Positions 3,633-32,254 of a DNA stretch of 50,600 nt are shown piece by piece; positions within the stretch are counted from its first letter, which is position 1; the number at the start of each line of letters is the position of its first letter. The notes below the pieces were generated by a model. That model ran no database searches. It was given only the letters and a program-made list of their open reading frames with translations, and was not told where the DNA came from. The stretch is from assembly GCA_021157585.1 (NCBI GenBank), contig JAGGWH010000081.1, positions 1-50,600 of the forward strand, in the 5' to 3' direction. Position numbers and translations under genes: made by a program. Source of the stretch: Bacteroidales bacterium (GTDB taxonomy: Bacteria > Bacteroidota > Bacteroidia > Bacteroidales > UBA12170).

Positions 3633-3790
3633 GTTCTGCATACTCCTGTTTTTAAAAGAGAAAGCAATTGTAAATTGAAGGTGAAATTTTCGTATTTCTT
3701 TCTTCAATGTTTTGATTATTAAATGATGTAGCGATTGTATAATTAAAAATTAGGGGTAGCAAATAATTGTTTACCACAAAATCAATTAGC

Positions 3791-6700
3791 ATGAAAAAAT
3801 CCGCTTTAAAATTAATAAGCCTCCTTAAGTCTAAATTTTTATCAATACTCTTTATAAGCTTAGGATTTATTGCCTTATCAAATTTGGTGCAAGCTCAGGT
3901 TATTAACGATCCATACTGTATTAGCGAATTCTCTACTTTCTCTGATAAGGTAACGGAAATGACCGTGGATTGGGATAACAATCTGATTTATTTTACCGGG
4001 AAAAATATACTTGGTAAATTGTACAAGGTGGATATGGACGGCAATTCTGTTCTCCTATCTTCAAATTTTGCCAGTAGCGCAGCTGCAGGTTTATTGCATA
4101 ATTATATTTCTACGGATATCGTTTATTATAACGATTCTATTTTTAGTAATTCCGAAGGAAGCTTAATTATGGTTGACTTATCTCCTAGCGTAAGCTCTAG
4201 TAACCCTCATGTCTTTACAGGTGATATTGGAGCCGAGGCGGGAATGGCTGTTATTGGTGATAAAATCTATACTACAGATGGAAAAGGGACTGCTAATGCT
4301 ATTTACGAATATGATATTGCAAGTAACACTTCGTCTGTGGTTGTAAGTGGATTGCCTTCTGATACTCTCCGACATGGTTTAGAATATTGCGAAGCAACCG
4401 GTAAGCTCTATATCGCCATAAGTCCATTAGGAATTTACGAAGTTGATATTGCAGGAGGAACTTATACTTTAGTTACAGATCCTTTACCAAGCGAGAGCAG
4501 AAGTAATTTTGCAATAGATCCAACCGGAACTTATGCTTTTGTTCATAATGGAGCCACTGTTCATCGTTACAATCTTTCTACCGGAGTCGGAGAAGTTTTT
4601 GCGTCTAGCTTATTGGCGACTAATTATTGCGATTTAAAATTTGGTCCTTCATCAAATGATCCTACAAAATACAGTTTGTATATTGGTGGTAACGATAGAA
4701 TTTATGAGGCAACGGGATTTGTTCCTGCGACTTCTGCTGATACGCCTACTCTTATCGCTACTCAGCCTGTGATTTGTCCCTTAGGATTACAATCAACAAC
4801 TATTTCAATTTCTGAAGATGATAATTTGAATGGAGCTTCAGATTGGTATTTATACGCAGGGAGTTGTGGTGGTACATTACTTGCATCTAATACAACTGGA
4901 GTTTTTACCGTAACGCCATCTTCAACAACAACTTATTATGTTAGAGGTGAAGGCGAATGTAATGTTTCTCCGGGCGAATGTGGCTCTATAACAATAATTT
5001 ATGGAGATATACAACCTCCGATAACTTCTTTAACACATATAAGTTGTCATGGCGAATCCGATGGAGCAATAGAAATTTTTGCCTCAGGAGGAACATCTCC
5101 TTATAAGTATTCTATTGATGGTGGGGAGAATTTTTATGATGAAAATATTTTTACAGATTTGCCGGCAGGAGAATATAATGTGGTGGTTAAAGAATCTAAC
5201 GGCTGTACAAATATTGATACTATTGAATTAACAGATCCTGATCCTTTGGATTTATCATATACATTAACGGATGTAAGCTGTAATAATGGAAACGACGGCA
5301 GTATAGAAATTACCGCATCCGGTGGAGTAGGCGAAGGTTATGAATATTCTATTGATGGTGGCGGAAGTTGGAGTCGAAGTAATTATTTTGAAGACCTAAC
5401 TGCGGGGACATACTCTTTGGTTGTCAGAGACTATGTTTATGATTATACGGTAATTGGAGGAAAAAGAACTTCTGCAACTACTTGCGAAACCGATCCTGTT
5501 GAGGCTATAATTATAGAGCCTACAGCTATCACCTTTTCTATTACTCAAACCGAAGTTAGCTGTAATGGCGGAAATGATGGAAGTATTATATTCAGTGCAA
5601 ACGGTGGCGAAGGAGGAAATGGTAGTGGAACATATCAATATAGTGTTGATGGTGGTTCTAATTGGCAAGATAGCGAGGAATTTACGGGTTTAACAGCAGG
5701 AGATTATCCAACTGCTGTTCGCGATAAAGAAAGTGCTTCTTGCGTTGTTGACGGGGAAACGGTAACAATTACTCAGCCTACTGCAATTACATTTACTACC
5801 TCTCAAACAAATATTAACTGTAATGGTGGAAGTGAAGGCGAAATAATTGTTAATGCGAGTGGTGGCGAAGGTGGTGCAGGCTCTGCAAGCTACGATTATT
5901 CTGCCGATGGTGGTGATAATTGGCAAACATCAAATACATTTAGTAATTTAATTGCGGGCGATTATGATATTGTTGTACGGGATCAAGAACAAACGGCTTG
6001 TCAGACAAATATAAAAACAGTTACAATAACAGAACCCACAGCATTAAGTTTTACTGTCGATCAGCAGAACATTAGTTGTAATGGAAATAATGATGGACAA
6101 ATCGTTATCAATGCCTCTGGAGGCGTTGGTGGAAACGGAAGTGCTACTTACGATTATAGTATTGATGGCGGAATAAATTGGCAGGCTGATAATACTTTTA
6201 ATAATTTATTAGCAGGGACATATAATGTTCGCATTCGCGATAAAGTGAATACAGATTGTAGTTCTGAAATATCTACCACTACTATTACACAAGCCGATCC
6301 ACTTACATTTACAACTACTCAAACAGACGTTGGTTGTAATGGTGGTTCTGATGGAATAATTACTGTAACTGCTAGTGGTGGTTCAGGTGTGGGATATGAT
6401 TATTCAAAAGATAATGGTTCCACTTGGCAAACATCCAATGTGTTTGAAGATTTAACAGCAGGAGATTATGAAATTATTATTCGCGATCAAGCCAATACTT
6501 CTTGTGTTTCTGATGCTAAAACAGTACGTATTGAAGAACCTACAGAAATTACTTTTTCAATTACTCAATATAATGTAAGTTGTAATGGTGGCGATGATGG
6601 GGAAATAGTTATTACCGCAAATGGAGGTGTAGGGGGCTCAGGAAGCGGTACTTATCAATACAGTAATGATAGTGGTGATACTTGGCAAGACGAAAACAGA

Positions 6701-9700
6701 TTTACAGGTTTAACCGCGAGTACTTATAATGTTAGTGTTAGAGATGCTGTGAATATAGCTTGTCAGACTGAATCTGAAGAAGTAGAAATTACAGAGCCAA
6801 GTGCAATAAGTGTTGAAACCTCTTTAACTCATGTTAGTTGTTTTGAAGGCTCTAACGGTCAAATAGAAGTTACTGCTACCGGTGGCGAAGGTGGAGGAGG
6901 AAGTGGAGTATTTGATTATTCAATTGATGGTGGTGATAATTGGCAAACATCAAATGTTTTCAATAATCTTATTGCCGGATCTTACTTTGTTGTTGTTCGT
7001 GATCAGGGAAATACAGATTGCACTACAGAAGCTGTTGAGCTTGAGATTTTAGAGCCTACCCAGATAACATTTACCACAGAGGCCTTTGATATTGCCTGCA
7101 GTGGTAACGATAATGGAAAAATAATTATAACAGCTAACGGAGGCGTTGGAGCTGCCGGAAGTGGTACGTATCAATATAGTAATGATGGTGGTTATAGTTG
7201 GCAAGATAGCGATATATTCGATGGTTTATTTGCCGGAACTTATCAGGTTTTGGTTCGCGATAAAGAAAATATAAATTGTGCAACAGATGCAAAAGAAGTT
7301 ATCGTTTCAGAAGCTGATCCTTTAACATTTACTTTTACTCAACGTGATGTAAGTTGTGCAGGTGGTAATGATGCTCAAATTGTTTTTACTGCTAGTGGTG
7401 GATCTGGTGCAGGATACCAATATTCTATTAATGGAGGAGTTGATTTTCAGGAATCTAATACCTTTAATGATCTCAGTTCAGGACGTTATACTTTGCTTAT
7501 TGCAGAAAAAGAGAATAAAGATTGTCAATCTGATATCCAGAGAATTACAATAACAGAACCCAGTTCAATAACATTTACGACAGAGAAAGTAGATGTAAGC
7601 TGCTTTGAATGCAATAATGGTGTAATCTCTGTTAGTGCAAGTGGAGGTGAAGGTGGAGCTGGAACGGGATTGTATCAGTACAGTATCGATAATGGAGATA
7701 CTTGGCAAGATGCATCTGTTTTTACAGCTTTGTATGCCGGAACTTATCAGGTTTTGGTTCGCGATCGTATAAATACAGCTTGCGAAGTTGGACCTCAAGA
7801 AGTTATTCTTACCGAACCAACGCCATTAGTATTTACTACAACTCATTCAAATATTAGTTGTAATGGTGCTGCTACCGGTGAAATTCAAATTACTGCCAGT
7901 GGTGGTCTCGGCGGAGCCGGAAGTGGAACTTATCAGTATTCTATCGATGATGGAACAACGTGGTCTGATTTTAATGTTTTTAGCAATTTATTAGCCGGTT
8001 CTTATTCGGTTAGAGTTCGCGATAAAGTAAATATTGTAAATGTTACCGAAGCCGAAATTGTAGAAATTACAGAACCAACGCTATTGGAATTTACATTTGA
8101 ACAAACCGATGTAACGTGTAATGGAAATAAAGATGGAACAATTGTGTTTACTGCCAGTGGAGGAGTTGGCGGCAATGGTTCTGGTACATATAGTTATTCT
8201 ATCGATGGAGGTTTAAATTGGCAAAACAACAATACTTTCGAGTCGCTTTCTATAGGAGAATATCAACTTGCTATTCGTGATGCTGTTGTAACTTCTTGTA
8301 TATCAGATATTACTAATACTGAAATAACAGAGCCGGATTTATTGGATTTGACTTTTACAAAAGTAGATGCTAATTGTAGTACCAATGATGATGGGGAAAT
8401 TCATTTAACTGCTACTGGAGGAACCGGTGGTGGTGCAAGTGGAACGTTTGAGTATACAATTGATGGAGGTAGTAATTGGCAGGATAGTGGAGACTTTACA
8501 GGCTTGGCTTCAGACAATTATTTGGTTGCTGTTCGCGATAAAGAATATCATTCTTGTGCAACACCTTATCAAGATGTTTTTATCGATTTAATAAGCCCGA
8601 TAAATCTAACTTATACATATGCTGAAATAAGTTGTAACGGAAATAATGATGGCATAATTGATATGACGGGAGTTGGTGGTTCTGGTTATGAGTTCACTAT
8701 TGATAATGGTGATACTTGGCAAGCTTTGGGTCTATTTGAAAATTTATACTCTGATGATTATGTATTGATAACACGCGAAAGTGAAAACCCTCTTTGCAGC
8801 TCAGAAACTATCGAGTTAAGTTTAGAAGAACCAACAGAATTGTCTTTTGTATCGACAGTAAAAAATGCAACTTGTTTGGCTGGAAACGATGGCGAAATTA
8901 CAGTAGAAGCAAGCGGAGGTGTTGGAGGTGCCGGAAGTGGAACTTATCAATATTCAAATGATAATGGAGCAACTTGGCAAGATTCAAATATTTTCTCTAA
9001 CCTTACTCAAGGCGATTACCTTATTACAATCAGAGATAAAGAAAATACAGATTGTCAAGCATCTGCTTTAGAAGTTACTGTTCACGAATATTCTACAGTA
9101 GAGGTTTCAACCACTTATACCGATGTAAGTTGTTTTGAAGGTAATGATGGCACAATAAATATTACAGCAAATGGTGGTGTTGATTATGAATATTCTGTAG
9201 ACAACGCTGCAACTTGGAGTACATCTAATATTTTTGAAGGCTTGATCGCCGGAACGTACACAGTAGTTGTCAGGGAACAAGCAATGCCAACTTGTTATAC
9301 AGAACCCATTATTCTTGAACTTGAAGAGCCAAGTAAAATAAACTTTACAATTACTAAAAAAGACGTTGAATGTTTTGGAGACGATGATGGCTATATAATT
9401 GTAAATGCAAGTGGAGGCGAAGGCGGATTAGGAACGGCAACCTACGAATATTCAAAAGATAATGGAGCCTCTTGGCAAACTAGTAATCGCTTTTTAAATC
9501 TAAAAGCGTCAACTTATAATATTGTTGTTAGAGATTTAGGGGTAACTGATTGTCAAACGGAAGCTTTAACAATTGAACTTACTGAGCCAATGATTATTGA
9601 TTTTTCTACAACAACAACCAATATTTCATGTAATGGCTCTTCTAATGGTGAAATAAGAGTTACTGCTACCGGAGGAGATAGTGGTACTTATCAATATTCT

Positions 9701-12700
9701 ATCGATCACGGAGAATGGCAAGATTCTAATGTGTTTACAGGTCTTAGTGCAGCAACTTATGTAATTAGTGTTCGAGATCAGAGTAATACTTCTTGTCAAG
9801 CAATTGATAAAGATGTAATCTTATCGGAGCCCACAGAATTGACTTTTACTTCCGATTTTACGCATGCCGATTGTGGTGTAAACAATAATGGTGAAATTGT
9901 TTTAACGGCAAGTGGTGGTGTTGGCGGTGCTGGAAGTGGAACTTATCAATACTCTATTGATAACGGAGCGACTTGGCAAGATAGCGATACATTTAGTGGA
10001 CTTGCTGCTGATACTTATACAGCTATTATTCACGATAAAGTAAATACGGCTTGTGCTTCAGCATCAGAAGATATTAAAATTAAAGCGCTTTCACCAATTG
10101 ATTTTACGCACACTTACCAAGATGTTAGTTGTCCGGGTAGTGCCGATGGTGAAATCGTGATTACTGTCGATGGTGCAGCTACTTACGATTATTCTATCGA
10201 TAATGGAACGACATGGCAAGCAGATAATAGTTTCTTAAATCTTAGTGGAGGAAGCTATGAATTGGTTGTTCGCGACCAATCAACGCCCGATTGTGAATCA
10301 GAAACAACCTTACAAGATTTGTTCGAAGCCGAAGAATTAACATTCACCTATAATGCTCGTAACGAAAGTTGTAATGCCGATAGCGATGGCGAAATTGAAA
10401 TGATTGCTAGCGGCGGAGCCAGCGGAACCTATGAATACAGTTCCAACGGAGGTTCAAACTGGAGCGATAACGGCTTGTTTGAGAATTTAAAGGCCGATGA
10501 TTTCAGTCTGCTTATTCGAGATAAAGCAAATCCCGATTGTATTTCAAATCAGGTAGATATTACCTTAGTAAAAGCTACAGAACTTGGCTTTGAAACAGAA
10601 GTAACCAATGTAAGTTGTTATGGTTTTAATGATGGCGAAATACTTATAACATTAACTGTCGGAAGTAAAACGGCTACTTATGAATATAGTATTGATAATG
10701 GGGAAAATTGGCTTCTATCAAATTCTTTTACTAATCTGAAAGCAGGGTTTTATTATGTTGGCATCCGAGAACAAGGGTCGTCAGATTGTCAACCTGATTT
10801 CAAAATGATTATTGTTTCACAACCGGAACGAATAAGTATAGAAGTACAGAAAAAAGATGAGACTTGTGACGGGGTGAATGATGGACGAATAACTATCATA
10901 TTCTCAGGTTGTGTAAGTGATTATTGTGAATTTACTATTGATGGAGGTGAAACATTCCAAGAATCTAATGTTTTCGATAAAATAGGTGTGGGAAGCTACT
11001 CTGTTTTCGCTCACAATAAAGATAACCCTGTTTGCACTTCGGATACTATACCGGTGGAGATCATAAAACGTAGCGAATTCGATTTCAGTGTCTCAAAAAC
11101 AAACACGACATGTAACGGTGCTTCCGATGGTACAATAACCGTTGGATTAAGTATAGGAGTTGATTTAACAGAATATGAATTCTCAAATACTAATGGAGAG
11201 AGCTGGCAAGATTCAAATGTCTTTACGAATTTAGCCAGTGGCAATTATACTGTTCTTGTTCAGAAAAAAGGAGGTAGTTCTTGTATATCTTATCCAAAAG
11301 AAGTTACTGTTGGAGAACCTGATATTATTACCTTCACAAGTAAAGTAACTAACGAAAGCTGTGGCGGAACGAATGACGGGTTTATTGAAATTACTGCTTT
11401 TGGTGGCTCCTCTTTAGTATATGATTTTTCTATAGACAACGGAATAAGCTGGCAAAGTGAATCTCTAATTGAAAATTTGGGAGTTGATACTTACGAAATC
11501 GTAGTTCGTGATCGTATGTTTAACGATTGTCAATCTGCAATGAGTGAAGTGAGTGTTGGAAAAGATAACGAACTGAATTTTGTCGTGAACTGGTTAAACG
11601 TTCAATGTTTTGGTGGTAACGATGGTAGATTAAGAGTAACCATGGATGAAGATTCACCGGATGTGGATTATGAATATTCTATTGATGGTGGTGATAATTG
11701 GCAAACTAATGAGTTGTTCACAGAATTAAGTGCCGGAACTTATTCCGTTCTTGTTCGCCGACTTGGAGGTACTTCTTGTCAAACAGCACGAGAGGTAATT
11801 ATTTCTCAACCCGATCTGATTAATTTCACGGTAGTAAAAACGGATATTACCTGTGCTAATGATGGTGACGGTAGCATAGAAGTAAATGCTAGTGGCGGTA
11901 AAAGTGGAACTTATCAATATTCAAATGATAATGGAAAAACTTGGCAAGACGAAAATATTTTTACCGAGTTGGATGCTGCAAGTTATTTGGTGTTAGTTCG
12001 AGATAAAAATAATAACGACTGTCAATCTAATCCTCAAAACGTTAATATTAGTTCTCCATCTGCACTTACTTTGTCGGTAAGCACACTCGATTTATGGTGT
12101 AATTCTTCTGCCGATGGCGAAATAAATGCTACAGGTAGCGGTGGCTCGGGTATTTTAAGTTATTCTATTGATGGCGGTACAACTTATCAGGATAGTGGAT
12201 CTTTTACAGGTCTCGATGCGGGTAATTATACGGTGGTTCTTAAAGATACCAACAGATGTGAATTATTCTATGAAAATAATCCTGTTGTCTTATCAGAGCC
12301 ACAAGGCGTAACATTTAATAATGTTGATGTTACCTACGGTGCTTGTGATGGTGGTTTAGGATCTATCGATATAGATGCCAGCAGCCTATTTGGAGATATG
12401 CTTTATTCTATTGATGGCGGCGCAAACTATGTTTCAACGGCTTATTTTGGCGATTTGAATTCAGGAATATATAATGTTGTTGTTAAAGAAAAAGATGACT
12501 GTGAAAATGCGTATAAAGAAAATCCTATTGAACTGACTTTAGCGAGTGAATTAAATGTAACTATTGTAGCTACACCAGATAATAATATTTGTACCTATTA
12601 TCCAATTACTCTAACGGCTGAAGGACCTGATATTGCTGAGTTTAGTTGGAATACTATGGAAGATACTGAAAGTATAATTTTCAGTACCGACAATCCGGGC

Positions 12701-13297
12701 AGTTATTATTTTACAGTTGATGTAGTGAGTGAACACGGATGTACGGATAGTGATGATATTACGCTTGATTTTAATACCGGATCGCCTATAAGTATTTTGG
12801 TCGAGCCAAACGATACTGCTTGTACTAATGATAAAATTACACTTACAGCTTCGGCAGATGATGCTGTATCGTATTTATGGAAACCCGATGATGTGGCTTC
12901 TAATAAAATAGTTGTAGAAAAAGATGGAGCCGGAGAGTTTATGTATTTTATTGAAGTAACTAACAGTACAGGCTGTATTAGTTTGGATTCTATACAATTG
13001 GTATTTAAAGATTGTACAGGATTGAATGAGTTAGATACAGATGGTGTTAAAATAGATATATTCCCTAATCCAACTAATGATGGTAAGTTTAATGTTGAAA
13101 TAAGCGGATTGAAAGAAGAAGTTGAAGTGTGGGTAATTGATTTTGATGGAAGACTGATATTAGAAGATAAAATCCCATTTGTAAATGCTATAAAACTTCA
13201 AAAACAATTTGATTTACAAGGCTTTGAGCGTGGAGTTTACTTTATACGTTTAGCCACTTCAGACAGGGTAAGTTATAAGCGGATAATATTGATGTAA
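3791..13297 (+). CDS. Giant SprB-repeat surface adhesin with T9SS sorting domain
   Basis: This 3168-residue protein is built for export. It has an N-terminal signal peptide ending near ALSNLVQAQ, then about 290 residues of beta-propeller-like sequence (repeated strands such as LYKVDMDGN and IYEYDIAS). An Ig-like module follows, then about 30 SprB-type repeats of roughly 84 residues (consensus VSCNGGNDGEI ... YSIDGG..WQ ... F..L.AGTY.V.VRD). Two Ig/PKD-like modules and a type A T9SS C-terminal sorting domain (FPNPTNDGKFNVEISG to the final YKRIILM) close the protein. SprB-repeat proteins are long cell-surface filaments; in gliding flavobacteria SprB is the mobile adhesin, but gliding cannot be inferred here. 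The frame is open from a TTG at 3767, but the ATG at 3791 (MKKSALKLISLL) gives a normal signal peptide and is chosen. No secretion-system genes lie nearby, as is common for cargo genes. Confidence 0.93.
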   Translation: MKKSALKLISLLKSKFLSILFISLGFIALSNLVQAQVINDPYCISEFSTFSDKVTEMTVDWDNNLIYFTGKNILGKLYKVDMDGNSVLLSSNFASSAAAGLLHNYISTDIVYYNDSIFSNSEGSLIMVDLSPSVSSSNPHVFTGDIGAEAGMAVIGDKIYTTDGKGTANAIYEYDIASNTSSVVVSGLPSDTLRHGLEYCEATGKLYIAISPLGIYEVDIAGGTYTLVTDPLPSESRSNFAIDPTGTYAFVHNGATVHRYNLSTGVGEVFASSLLATNYCDLKFGPSSNDPTKYSLYIGGNDRIYEATGFVPATSADTPTLIATQPVICPLGLQSTTISISEDDNLNGASDWYLYAGSCGGTLLASNTTGVFTVTPSSTTTYYVRGEGECNVSPGECGSITIIYGDIQPPITSLTHISCHGESDGAIEIFASGGTSPYKYSIDGGENFYDENIFTDLPAGEYNVVVKESNGCTNIDTIELTDPDPLDLSYTLTDVSCNNGNDGSIEITASGGVGEGYEYSIDGGGSWSRSNYFEDLTAGTYSLVVRDYVYDYTVIGGKRTSATTCETDPVEAIIIEPTAITFSITQTEVSCNGGNDGSIIFSANGGEGGNGSGTYQYSVDGGSNWQDSEEFTGLTAGDYPTAVRDKESASCVVDGETVTITQPTAITFTTSQTNINCNGGSEGEIIVNASGGEGGAGSASYDYSADGGDNWQTSNTFSNLIAGDYDIVVRDQEQTACQTNIKTVTITEPTALSFTVDQQNISCNGNNDGQIVINASGGVGGNGSATYDYSIDGGINWQADNTFNNLLAGTYNVRIRDKVNTDCSSEISTTTITQADPLTFTTTQTDVGCNGGSDGIITVTASGGSGVGYDYSKDNGSTWQTSNVFEDLTAGDYEIIIRDQANTSCVSDAKTVRIEEPTEITFSITQYNVSCNGGDDGEIVITANGGVGGSGSGTYQYSNDSGDTWQDENRFTGLTASTYNVSVRDAVNIACQTESEEVEITEPSAISVETSLTHVSCFEGSNGQIEVTATGGEGGGGSGVFDYSIDGGDNWQTSNVFNNLIAGSYFVVVRDQGNTDCTTEAVELEILEPTQITFTTEAFDIACSGNDNGKIIITANGGVGAAGSGTYQYSNDGGYSWQDSDIFDGLFAGTYQVLVRDKENINCATDAKEVIVSEADPLTFTFTQRDVSCAGGNDAQIVFTASGGSGAGYQYSINGGVDFQESNTFNDLSSGRYTLLIAEKENKDCQSDIQRITITEPSSITFTTEKVDVSCFECNNGVISVSASGGEGGAGTGLYQYSIDNGDTWQDASVFTALYAGTYQVLVRDRINTACEVGPQEVILTEPTPLVFTTTHSNISCNGAATGEIQITASGGLGGAGSGTYQYSIDDGTTWSDFNVFSNLLAGSYSVRVRDKVNIVNVTEAEIVEITEPTLLEFTFEQTDVTCNGNKDGTIVFTASGGVGGNGSGTYSYSIDGGLNWQNNNTFESLSIGEYQLAIRDAVVTSCISDITNTEITEPDLLDLTFTKVDANCSTNDDGEIHLTATGGTGGGASGTFEYTIDGGSNWQDSGDFTGLASDNYLVAVRDKEYHSCATPYQDVFIDLISPINLTYTYAEISCNGNNDGIIDMTGVGGSGYEFTIDNGDTWQALGLFENLYSDDYVLITRESENPLCSSETIELSLEEPTELSFVSTVKNATCLAGNDGEITVEASGGVGGAGSGTYQYSNDNGATWQDSNIFSNLTQGDYLITIRDKENTDCQASALEVTVHEYSTVEVSTTYTDVSCFEGNDGTINITANGGVDYEYSVDNAATWSTSNIFEGLIAGTYTVVVREQAMPTCYTEPIILELEEPSKINFTITKKDVECFGDDDGYIIVNASGGEGGLGTATYEYSKDNGASWQTSNRFLNLKASTYNIVVRDLGVTDCQTEALTIELTEPMIIDFSTTTTNISCNGSSNGEIRVTATGGDSGTYQYSIDHGEWQDSNVFTGLSAATYVISVRDQSNTSCQAIDKDVILSEPTELTFTSDFTHADCGVNNNGEIVLTASGGVGGAGSGTYQYSIDNGATWQDSDTFSGLAADTYTAIIHDKVNTACASASEDIKIKALSPIDFTHTYQDVSCPGSADGEIVITVDGAATYDYSIDNGTTWQADNSFLNLSGGSYELVVRDQSTPDCESETTLQDLFEAEELTFTYNARNESCNADSDGEIEMIASGGASGTYEYSSNGGSNWSDNGLFENLKADDFSLLIRDKANPDCISNQVDITLVKATELGFETEVTNVSCYGFNDGEILITLTVGSKTATYEYSIDNGENWLLSNSFTNLKAGFYYVGIREQGSSDCQPDFKMIIVSQPERISIEVQKKDETCDGVNDGRITIIFSGCVSDYCEFTIDGGETFQESNVFDKIGVGSYSVFAHNKDNPVCTSDTIPVEIIKRSEFDFSVSKTNTTCNGASDGTITVGLSIGVDLTEYEFSNTNGESWQDSNVFTNLASGNYTVLVQKKGGSSCISYPKEVTVGEPDIITFTSKVTNESCGGTNDGFIEITAFGGSSLVYDFSIDNGISWQSESLIENLGVDTYEIVVRDRMFNDCQSAMSEVSVGKDNELNFVVNWLNVQCFGGNDGRLRVTMDEDSPDVDYEYSIDGGDNWQTNELFTELSAGTYSVLVRRLGGTSCQTAREVIISQPDLINFTVVKTDITCANDGDGSIEVNASGGKSGTYQYSNDNGKTWQDENIFTELDAASYLVLVRDKNNNDCQSNPQNVNISSPSALTLSVSTLDLWCNSSADGEINATGSGGSGILSYSIDGGTTYQDSGSFTGLDAGNYTVVLKDTNRCELFYENNPVVLSEPQGVTFNNVDVTYGACDGGLGSIDIDASSLFGDMLYSIDGGANYVSTAYFGDLNSGIYNVVVKEKDDCENAYKENPIELTLASELNVTIVATPDNNICTYYPITLTAEGPDIAEFSWNTMEDTESIIFSTDNPGSYYFTVDVVSEHGCTDSDDITLDFNTGSPISILVEPNDTACTNDKITLTASADDAVSYLWKPDDVASNKIVVEKDGAGEFMYFIEVTNSTGCISLDSIQLVFKDCTGLNELDTDGVKIDIFPNPTNDGKFNVEISGLKEEVEVWVIDFDGRLILEDKIPFVNAIKLQKQFDLQGFERGVYFIRLATSDRVSYKRIILM
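5018..12540 (+). repeat. About 30 in-frame tandem SprB repeats, period about 250 bases
   Basis: Hand counting gives 29 recognisable units plus one degenerate last unit (the one beginning VTFNNVDVTYGACDGG). Units differ enough at the DNA level (synonymous and amino-acid changes) that this is an old array, not a recent expansion. Units 3-20 mostly carry the glycine-rich loop GGxGGxGSGTY; units 21-27 and the first two usually lack it and are more diverged. Almost every unit has two cysteines, one in the VSCNG motif and one after VRDxxNTx. Confidence 0.88.
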
Positions 13298-27354: not shown

Positions 27355-28083
27355 TCACTCTGTCTTTGCTTCAGACCGAGCTGCACCATTCTGAGTATAT
27401 TGAAGAGCCGAAGCACCTTCTATCAATCGCCCATTCTCGCAAACATAAGTAGTAGCCGGAAACATTTCGAAAAGAGAATAATCGTGGGTAGCCATTAATA
27501 CGGCACAATCGTTTTTGCTAATATCAAAAAGAAGTTTCATAATTCCTTCTGAAGATTGGGGATCAAGATTTCCTGTTGGCTCATCGGCTAAAATAAGTAC
27601 GGGATCGTTTATAAGAGCTCTTGCTATTCCAAGGCGCTGTTGCTCACCGCCGGATACTTGATGCGGCATTTTATAACCTTTATTTTGAAGTCCGACTTTT
27701 CCCAAAACTTCCGCAGCTTTTTCTTTCATTGCTTTTTTGTCTTTCCAGCCGGTAGCTCTCATTACAAAAAGCAAGTTTTCTTCAATATTACGATCTTGTA
27801 ATAACTGAAATTCTTGAAAAACAATACCCAATTTTCTCCGTAAATAGGGAATTTCTTTTCTTTTTAACTTTTCTAGATTATAACCAACCACCTGTGCTTC
27901 GCCCGAAACAAAAGGTAAATCGGCATAAAGAGTTTTTAATAAACTACTTTTACCACTTCCTGTTTTTCCAATAATATAAAAAAAATCACCTTTATTTACT
28001 TTTAAAGTTACTTGTTTAAGTACCAAATGATCCTGCTGAAAGACATCAAAATTTTTAATGTCTACTACGGTATTTTCGTTCAT
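27355..28083 (-). CDS. ftsE: FtsE-like ABC transporter ATP-binding protein
   Basis: The 242-residue ATPase has Walker [11 protein letters not shown]-loop [15 protein letters not shown], signature [15 protein letters not shown], Walker [13 protein letters not shown] and the switch histidine in MATHDYSLF. The FQEFQLL and ENLLF regions and the short single-domain form are typical of FtsE, which works with FtsX at the division site to activate cell-wall hydrolases. No FtsX-like permease gene is adjacent, so the symbol is a family assignment; a LolD/MacB-type ATPase is the main alternative. Confidence 0.8.
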
Positions 28084-30301: not shown

Positions 30302-32254
30302 ATGAAAAATTATCAAACAGAGTTTCTTTCTCAATATATCAGTAATCTGCGTATCAGTAAAAGCATATCTCGATTAGCATATCAGGCAGGAAATACATTG
30401 TATTTAAATAATCAATGTGTTTTGCAAAGCAGAGAAGGTGAGCATTTTGCTTATATAGTTGAGGATAATTATCAGGATTTTAATACCGATATTTATTTTG
30501 ATGACAATGAGAAAAAAATTGAGTTGCAATGTAATTGTAATGCAGAAGGTTTTTGTTCTCATAAGGTTTCGGCATTAATGCAATTGCACGAAGATTTAAG
30601 TCAGGAAACTAATTCCGAACTAAAAGAAGGGATGAAATATACTCGCGACGGGATGATAAAGCGCGTTATGGCCGAACGTGAAAAAAAAGCAAAGACAGAA
30701 AAATTTCAACTCGATTTTGCTGATAATATTTATGGCGAACATTTAATTACAAACCAAAGAAATAAAACCTATAAGCTTACTTTTTATGATTTCGACGAAA
30801 AGATAGGTTATTGTTCTTGTCCCGACTATCACACCAATAAATTAGGAAGCTGTAAGCATTTGATTTATGCTTTTGACGAATTTCAAAAACAGTACACTAA
30901 TAAAACATTACCCATACAGGATTTTCCTTTTTTTGAAGTTTTTCTGCATCCCTTAAAAGATTATAGAATATCTTGGTTTTATCCCGGAAAAATACCTTTA
31001 GAAATTCAAGAACTCGTTAATAAATATTTCAATGAAGAAAAACAAATATTAGACAAGCAGCTCATTCAGTTTCAGGGTTTTATTTCCGAAGCTCAAAAAC
31101 ATAAGTTTATAAATATCCGTCCCGAAGTTATAGCAAAAGTTAATAAAGCAATTGAAAGACAGTCGTTAAACGAACTGAAAGCAAAAACTCCTTTAAATTT
31201 TGCAAAGCTCGAAATAAGTTTAGCACCTTATCAAAAAGAAGGAATAGAATTTTTGGTTTTTAATAAAAACAGTATTTTGGCCGATGAAATTGGTTTAAAA
31301 AAACCTTTACAAGCAGTTATTGCCGCACACTTTAAAAAAGATATTTTTGCTTTTAAATCAACATTAATTATTTGTCCTAATTCGCTTATTCCTCAGTGGC
31401 AACAAGAGATACAAAAAGTAGATAAAGAAAGTTCGAGATTGATAAAAAATAGTGCTGATTTGGCATTTTCTAATAATGTTTATTTTAAAATTTTAGGCTT
31501 AGACGATTTTTTGCAACAACAGCTTGCTTTTGAAGATTTATCATCAGACTTAGTTATTATTGATGAAGCACAAAATATTAACAGCTTTGATTCGGATTTA
31601 GTACCTATTATCCGAATGTTAAAGTATAAGGAATTGATTATTATAACCGACAGTCAGCCTGAAAATAATCTAATGCAGTTTTATACTCTCGTGGGTTTGG
31701 TAGATAATACCTTACTTACTCCTCTTTGGGAATTTTCTTATCAGCATTGCCTTTTCGACTCTCAAGTACTCGATAAAATTGTTGGATATTATAATCAAGA
31801 AAAAATTGTAAAACGTCTTGAAACAATTTTACTTCGACGTAAAAAAGAGGACGTATCAGATCAATTAGTAAAACCCGATTCAGAGATTAGTTCTGATACT
31901 CTTATTAATTCACCTGTATCATTACAAAAACAATCCCCTAATCTAGTACGCAAGCAGTTGAGTGCCGATAAATACCGACAGAAAAGAAAATCTCTTATTG
32001 GTCAAACATCTCTTTTTCCTCTCAGACATGAAAATAAAACAATAAGTTTAAGCGGAGAGGAGCATAAGGTTTTTGAGACTCCAACAATTAAAAATGTAAA
32101 ATCCGATATAGAAATAGAAAAACTCTTGCAAAATGCTCAAGCTTTTTTAGAAGGATTATATACTTTGCAAACGGGTAAAAAATTACCTTGGAAAAAAAAG
32201 AATATAGATTTAAAAATTAATAAAGACGAGGTGGTTTTGCGTATAAAAAGGTAA
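30302..32254 (+). CDS. Double-SWIM, SNF2-like protein with degenerate ATPase motifs and no helicase C domain
   Basis: Two SWIM zinc fingers stand at the N-terminus: C77-x-C79-x5-C85-x-H87 (CNCNAEGFCSH) and C171-x-C173-x10-C184-x-H186. A SNF2-type N-terminal domain follows from about residue 305 (LAPYQKEGIEFLVFNK). Its key motifs are changed: the usual GLGKT Walker A is GLKKP (331-335), DEAH is DEAQ (421-424), and LTGTP is ITDSQ. The region ending ILLRRKKEDVSDQL corresponds to the end of a SNF2_N domain. The second RecA lobe (helicase C) is absent and replaced by about 130 polar residues. It probably cannot hydrolyse ATP, and may bind DNA or protein through the SWIM fingers. It lies directly upstream of a two-component cluster. 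Confidence 0.75.
   Translation: MKNYQTEFLSQYISNLRISKSISRLAYQAGNTLYLNNQCVLQSREGEHFAYIVEDNYQDFNTDIYFDDNEKKIELQCNCNAEGFCSHKVSALMQLHEDLSQETNSELKEGMKYTRDGMIKRVMAEREKKAKTEKFQLDFADNIYGEHLITNQRNKTYKLTFYDFDEKIGYCSCPDYHTNKLGSCKHLIYAFDEFQKQYTNKTLPIQDFPFFEVFLHPLKDYRISWFYPGKIPLEIQELVNKYFNEEKQILDKQLIQFQGFISEAQKHKFINIRPEVIAKVNKAIERQSLNELKAKTPLNFAKLEISLAPYQKEGIEFLVFNKNSILADEIGLKKPLQAVIAAHFKKDIFAFKSTLIICPNSLIPQWQQEIQKVDKESSRLIKNSADLAFSNNVYFKILGLDDFLQQQLAFEDLSSDLVIIDEAQNINSFDSDLVPIIRMLKYKELIIITDSQPENNLMQFYTLVGLVDNTLLTPLWEFSYQHCLFDSQVLDKIVGYYNQEKIVKRLETILLRRKKEDVSDQLVKPDSEISSDTLINSPVSLQKQSPNLVRKQLSADKYRQKRKSLIGQTSLFPLRHENKTISLSGEEHKVFETPTIKNVKSDIEIEKLLQNAQAFLEGLYTLQTGKKLPWKKKNIDLKINKDEVVLRIKR

Follow-up and report, generated by a model that had tools for sequence, protein, structure and literature searches.

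Pseudo-helicases are usually regarded as end points, and zinc fingers of the SWIM type follow the ligand pattern CxCxnCxH. SWI2/SNF2 ATPases associated with SWIM fingers are termed SsoRad54-type in PMC5512222, which also describes RapA/HepA as acting on RNA polymerase. In eukaryotes, the SNF2-type protein ZRANB3 bears a PIP box and an APIM and is recruited to the sliding clamp by these short linear motifs (PMC5481773). For clamp binding, PMC12309361 and PMC3919608 give the consensus QL[S/D]LF, with positions 1, 4, and 5 being the most important, and PMC12309361 also names the peptide QLSLPL. Among the matches listed in open-licence literature, we found no bacterial SNF2-type clamp accessory factor.

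Here, we analyze a 650-aa protein encoded in a 50,600-nucleotide stretch of a Bacteroidales genome (the window, meaning the whole stretch). It has the same ancestry as the SWIM-associated SWI2/SNF2 ATPases (such as the intact relatives L051, L053, and L055), with which it has in common the SWIM part, the first RecA-like lobe, and a matching C-terminal end, and relatives outside the genus show 35 to 43% identity in the best segment. Unlike these ATPases, the window protein has a broken Walker A motif and a broken motif III, lacks the second lobe, and carries a conserved clamp-type motif in its tail. We estimate at roughly 60% the probability that the protein works, with the whole mechanism included, as an SNF2/SWIM adaptor that has lost its ATPase activity and is tethered to the sliding clamp. 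The tail pentapeptide QTSLF would dock into the pocket of the DnaN clamp, the SWIM fingers, together with the one RecA lobe that is left, would hold DNA or a partner protein beside the clamp, and there would be no ATP-driven translocation, leaving a role as a DNA-binding adaptor in replication or repair. That the protein is a conserved and ATPase-dead member of the SWIM-SNF2 family is, judged from sequence, very probable, and clamp binding via the tail is likely. The features, with coordinates in the window, are as follows.

30302..32254, + strand: complete ORF of 650 aa with an ATG start and without internal stop, comprising two SWIM-type ligand sets, SNF2 lobe 1, a disordered tail, and a C-terminal mini-domain
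30530..30562, + strand: first SWIM-type ligand set, CNCNAEGFCSH (CNCx5CSH), residues 77 to 87; ligands in 10/10 genus orthologs, no Pfam SWIM match
30812..30859, + strand: second SWIM-type ligand set, CSCPDYHTNKLGSCKH (CSCx10CKH), residues 171 to 186; ligands in 10/10 genus orthologs, Pfam SWIM score below the cut-off
31202..31891, + strand: RecA-like lobe 1 of SNF2, approximately residues 301 to 530 (PF00176 and an AlphaFold model aligned to 1z63)
31292..31306, + strand: degenerate Walker A motif GLKKP, residues 331 to 335 (alignment of genus orthologs)
31562..31573, + strand: Walker B motif DEAQ, residues 421 to 424, the usual form among intact relatives
31643..31657, + strand: degenerate motif III ITDSQ, residues 448 to 452; TDSx in 10/10 genus orthologs, TGTP or SGTP in most intact relatives
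31880..32002, + strand: predicted disordered linker at the site of the absent lobe 2 (structure prediction and LLRR-to-motif spacing)
32003..32017, + strand: QTSLF, residues 568 to 572, a beta-clamp-binding-like pentapeptide in the disordered tail (alignments and the consensus given in PMC12309361 and PMC3919608)
32102..32251, + strand: C-terminal mini-domain, with a helix at residues 602 to 624 and strands at 635 to 639 and 644 to 648 (model and the matching tail end in intact relatives)

The SNF2 family PF00176 matches residues 310 to 530 with 67.7 bits (cut-off, 24.9), with no helicase-C family among the Pfam matches of the 650-aa protein, from which the second RecA lobe with motifs V and VI is absent according to Pfam, the alignments, and the model. 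An earlier note on this stretch had described an intact frame without a helicase C domain and with damage to both Walker A and motif III. All of these were found again, the translation having GLKKP and ITDSQ in place of GxGK[TS] and [TS]GTP. Its description of the two SWIM motifs as perfect holds for the ligands, which are kept in all ten genus orthologs, but not for the Pfam SWIM model, which scores the second set at 11 bits against a cut-off of 19.6 and leaves the first unmatched; the SWIM assignment rests on the ligand pattern, which is present, and on family context. What the earlier note had overlooked is that the deletion is internal, since the QTSLF tail and the C-terminal mini-domain remain. 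The AlphaFold2 model, built from a 52-row alignment, has a mean pLDDT of 82 and a single stretch below 50 (residues 527 to 598), and its RecA lobe aligns to lobe 1 of 1z63, the SNF2 core from Sulfolobus (Z 23.5, rmsd 2.6, 221 residues), in a fold search that covered mainly the SNF2 core and barely reached the C-terminal mini-domain or the SWIM region. This SWIM-SNF2 protein is thus predicted to keep the fold of lobe 1 and to have a disordered tail.

The DEAQ tetrapeptide had been listed as a loss of DEAH, a view that we do not share. Most of the fetched relatives (the best 80 of 291) combine GLGKT, DEAQ, and TGTP with motifs of the QRIGRIDRxGQ type, and because DEAQ co-occurs with intact motifs, it is no sign of decay and was rejected as a lesion. 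As both DEAQ and the Q-motif Gln311 are retained in the window protein, residual ATP contact is possible, and they would suit a nucleotide-sensing or trans-complemented ATPase whose lobe 1 still binds ATP or is completed by lobe 2 of a different helicase, as would the GLGKT or GLGKS of the long forms described below. This alternative is quite unlikely, given that the Walker A threonine is replaced by proline in 4/4 short forms, that motif III is lost, and that the genome holds no second SNF2 match.

Orthologs of the protein are present in 10 of 11 genomes of the genus, the sole miss being G004, a genome that is 75% complete. We observe two forms, a short one in four species, namely the window species (G000) and G005, G001, and G006, and a long one with lobe 2 in six species (G010, G007, G008, G002, G009, and G003). 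The other three short forms have 651 to 655 aa and are 73, 72, and 68% identical to the window protein, respectively, while the long forms span 808 to 865 aa, with that of G008 cut at the contig end. Motif III reads TDSx in every ortholog, whereas motif VI is unrecognizable in 6/6 long forms and is gone along with lobe 2 in 4/4 short ones. At Walker A, all six long forms have GLGKT or GLGKS, the short forms outside the window species have GLGKP (two) or SLGKP (one), and GLKKP occurs in the window species only. Orthologs with the same substitutions, for which the earlier note had suggested a search, therefore exist with respect to motif III (10/10) and the loss of lobe 2 (four species), but not for GLKKP. 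The distance between LLRR and the tail motif is 58 residues in the window protein versus 271 in the long form of G010, which implies that the window protein lacks approximately 213 residues on the upstream side of QTSLF. An AlphaFold2 model of this G010 protein (L049) has a full SNF2 core, with a pLDDT of at least 70 in 745 of 865 residues, and its fold matches span both lobes, most of them with an rmsd of 7 to 10 or above, suggesting that the lobes are placed differently.

In a careful tree from which the motif columns were left out, the four short forms make up one clade (support, 100/100) within the genus clade (100/100). By parsimony, the losses would have been stepwise, starting with a decay of motifs III and VI while the P-loop was kept, as in the long forms, followed, in either order, by a replacement of the P-loop Thr with Pro and by a deletion that removed lobe 2, upstream of the tail motif, and then by the P-loop change from Gly to Lys in the window species only. 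A recent truncation in this strain does not fit, because the three nearest relatives are also without lobe 2, while the following six combine an intact Walker A with a lobe 2 that already lacks motif VI. Close relatives with both Walker A and helicase C intact, which would have refuted the earlier note, were thus not found in the sense it intended. The series of surviving intermediates runs from all ATPase motifs, through a P-loop without motifs III and VI and the GLGKP/SLGKP short forms, to GLKKP, and it allows the question of which SNF2 parts stay useful once ATP hydrolysis is gone to be asked stepwise. The broader proposal, that a bacterial SNF2 lineage traded its motor for a tether, with the ATPase decaying stepwise, a clamp tag becoming fixed, and a lobe-2-less, SWIM-fingered clamp adaptor at the end, seems to us an even bet.

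The reading frame is open in 10/10 genus orthologs (G008 being contig-cut). Between G000 and G005, differences at codon positions 1, 2, and 3 are 0.20, 0.13, and 0.43, respectively. The dN/dS ratio is 0.11 for G000-G005, 0.13 for G000-G001, and approximately 0.09 to 0.10 for G005-G001 and G001-G006, at dS values of 1.4 to 2.1 that are near saturation in these four usable short-form pairs (dS is 3.2 and infinite in the two other pairs, which could not be used). For G010-G007, the two closest long forms, dN/dS is 0.15. On a codon-model grid for the four short forms, an omega of 0.05, the lowest value tried, beats an omega of 1 by approximately 554 log units for the whole gene, and an omega of 0.1, the second-lowest value, does so by approximately 182 log units for the RecA lobe, with omega 1 taken at the best kappa. 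These results indicate that the 650-aa frame is real and under purifying selection. A functionless, decaying remnant would account for the stepwise loss of catalytic motifs, and a frame change splits one of the degenerate relatives (L118), but the ten open frames and an omega far below 1, with the RecA lobe included, are already strong evidence against this explanation, and we regard it as highly improbable. The dN/dS check proposed in the earlier note thus comes out, together with the presence of the short form in four species, in favor of selection rather than decay, and, to the extent that sequences can show, its core claim of a selected, non-catalytic protein is supported.

With respect to the regions of the short forms, identity is 0.82 and 0.81 in the SWIM halves, 0.69 in the RecA lobe, 0.56 in the linker and tail, and 0.58 at the C-terminal end; from the motif to the C terminus, identity is 14 to 22% in three more distant long-form pairs. 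The tail motif in the ten genus orthologs is QTSLF (four), QISLF (two), QMNLF, QISMF, QTNLF, or QTILF. Past residue 527, just six columns without gaps are identical in 9/10 or more genus members (543, 553, 568, 571, 572, and 622), and three of these, 568, 571, and 572, correspond to motif positions 1, 4, and 5. In an 11-row alignment of degenerate proteins (A3), Q568 and F572 are the sole invariant columns after Q521. QTSLF agrees with the beta-clamp motif (QL[SD]LF or QxxLF) at positions 1, 4, and 5, has T at position 2 where the consensus has L, and is predicted to be accessible, lying within the stretch with pLDDT below 50.

The polymerases of the genus serve as a yardstick for this motif. 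Across nine genus genomes, the main DnaE has QVSLF (seven) or QGSLF (two) in 9/9 cases, and DinB-type proteins have QL[DN]LF (nine) or QLEIEF (two) in 11/11. Other parts of these polymerases also contain a few matches to the loose motif pattern that look like chance. The sole second DnaE examined (L136, 980 aa) has no clamp-type motif near its end. The window genome has a DnaN gene. Like the clamp binders DnaE and DinB/Pol IV, the window protein has QxxLF/QxxLxF with conserved positions 1, 4, and 5 in a predicted disordered tail; unlike them, it is not a polymerase, and its clamp binding is putative. The case for a clamp motif is based on the comparison with DnaE and DinB and on positions that stay conserved while the tail around them changes fast, and not on the 18/18 count given below. 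The candidate clamp-type tail is a new lead beyond what the earlier note had observed, and it suggests a narrower role than binding or scaffolding in general. As a separate observation, a second DnaE of approximately 980 aa is present in 8/8 other genus genomes searched and has no match in the window genome, from whose draft assembly it may be absent.

A non-catalytic scaffold of SWIM fingers and RecA lobe could also bind DNA or a protein other than the clamp, with the tail motif binding another partner. The SWIM halves being the best-conserved regions of the short forms is in keeping with this, and a short motif is by itself no proof of a partner. On the other hand, the conserved positions are precisely 1, 4, and 5, the DnaE and DinB of the genus bear the same tag, and degenerate proteins have a motif of either five or six residues, both lengths being known among clamp binders, so that we see a partner other than the clamp as possible but rather unlikely. 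If, as we favor, the tail binds DnaN, a non-enzymatic SNF2-derived factor would join the bacterial clamp clients, in parallel to ZRANB3; the latter is an ATP-dependent endonuclease and would be an analogy for how the window protein works, not a case of tether homology. RapA/HepA belongs, as does the window protein, to the bacterial SNF2 family, and RNA polymerase is its target.

Degenerate relatives are also found outside the genus (L052, L054, L069, L154, L156, L159, and L161, plus L098 and the frame-split L118), with SWIM ligands kept where covered, damaged ATPase motifs, and a six-residue linker motif such as QMKLEF, QISLDF, or QMVLDF. At residues -150 to -55 of 95 rows (after removal of seven duplicates), QxxLF/QxxLxF is present in 18/18 degenerate rows (1.5 expected from shuffles) versus 10/77 intact rows (5.5 expected), under a rule that calls rows degenerate if they have no GLGK[TS] or no motif VI and by which L099 (DEVQ, SGIP) counts as intact. 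This count includes G008, though contig-cut, and leaves aside rows that are 3'-open or shorter than 700 aa (L062, L065, L102, L108, L117, and L118), six genus-member duplicates, L166 and L172 (duplicates of G041 and G052), and the partial or distant L175 to L179; the motif table of the relatives omits L117 (116 aa). In the wider tail (the last 190 residues, or from residue 531 in short forms), the motif occurs in 14/14 degenerate rows (2.3 expected) and 12/66 intact ones (12.0 expected), which places the intact group at the shuffling level. The pattern was written after viewing the genus and L052, L054, L069, and L098; L154, L156, L159, and L161, found afterward, have the motif in 4/4 cases and are the only out-of-sample rows, from the same subclade as L052, L054, and L069. 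Given its presence in 10/77 intact relatives, approximately twice the shuffled expectation and near-consensus in some, the tag is not exclusive to degenerate proteins, and tags of this kind may have had more than one origin within the SWIM-SNF2 family.

Careful trees of 41 and 42 chosen rows place the degenerate rows on one side of a branch, at a weak support of 69/75 (41 rows, built without motif columns, with two strong subclades) and of 65/68 (42 rows), whereas a quick tree of 71 of 89 rows (18 near-duplicate or partial rows omitted) has two separate degenerate clades at an unresolved fork. The degenerate proteins may thus form one clade, and the association between motif and decay is to be counted as one evolutionary event; it amounts to a single independent pair and is without statistical force across lineages. 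Both the set of relatives (the best 80 of 291) and the search of the order (the best 30 matches) are skewed toward the query. A phylum-wide sample of 395 genomes gave five strong matches, the window genome and four others, and all four of the latter have intact motifs and no tail motif.

Some further observations concern individual relatives. The frame change of L118 (Bacteroidetes bacterium 4572_114) is within the SNF2 lobe and could be an assembly error, and the downstream piece keeps GQMVLDF. The linkers of the ATPase-intact L090, L095, L104, L170, and G041 (L041) contain the near-consensus QLELF. We also observe a reciprocal loss, opposite to the window protein, in a clade of 20 mostly Bacteroidales rows (L086, L090, L095, L104, L111, and L122, among others) that have intact ATPase motifs but no zinc ligands: the second SWIM set is SxS...TxH, as in SNSMDSRLNKLGTTKH, and the first set is absent.

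The earlier note had proposed to look for a full-length SWIM/SNF2 helicase elsewhere in the genome as a partner; the 95.5%-complete draft genome has no other PF00176 match. A Pfam SWIM search of the genome gave nothing above the cut-off, which carries little weight because the model misses the 650-aa protein too. There is no gene neighbor common to all ten orthologs. An upstream block (sigma factor, MatE, and GHMP kinase) is present in G005, G006, G010, and G007, and a downstream block (TatD-type DNase and asparaginase, followed by DHFR and a DUF2779 protein on contigs that extend far enough) in G005, G001, G007, and G010, with neither block at the window locus or at G002, G003, G008, and G009. 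An operon partner was rejected, as these blocks are shared by some orthologs only, and the TatD-type DNase adjoining in 4/10 orthologs is at most a weak pointer. With no partner SNF2 match and no common gene neighbor, a role in repair is one that we infer.

The best PADLOC match is the ZorD profile (E 7.6e-22 over residues 289 to 595), from which a phage-defense SNF2 protein of the ZorD-like or DrmD-like kind might be proposed. This match covers the ATPase part common to such proteins, the nine neighboring proteins have no Zorya or DISARM family among their matches (E 1e-5), and the presence of an ortholog in 10/11 genus genomes counts against defense; we rejected a defense system on the basis of a ZorD match without these families nearby, and consider this explanation scarcely credible. 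With respect to the surroundings of the gene, the neighbor at 27355 to 28083 has generic-looking matches of the ABC-ATPase type, and a 3176-aa ORF at 3767 to 13297 of the window consists mostly of SprB repeats and ends in a secretion-system sorting domain.
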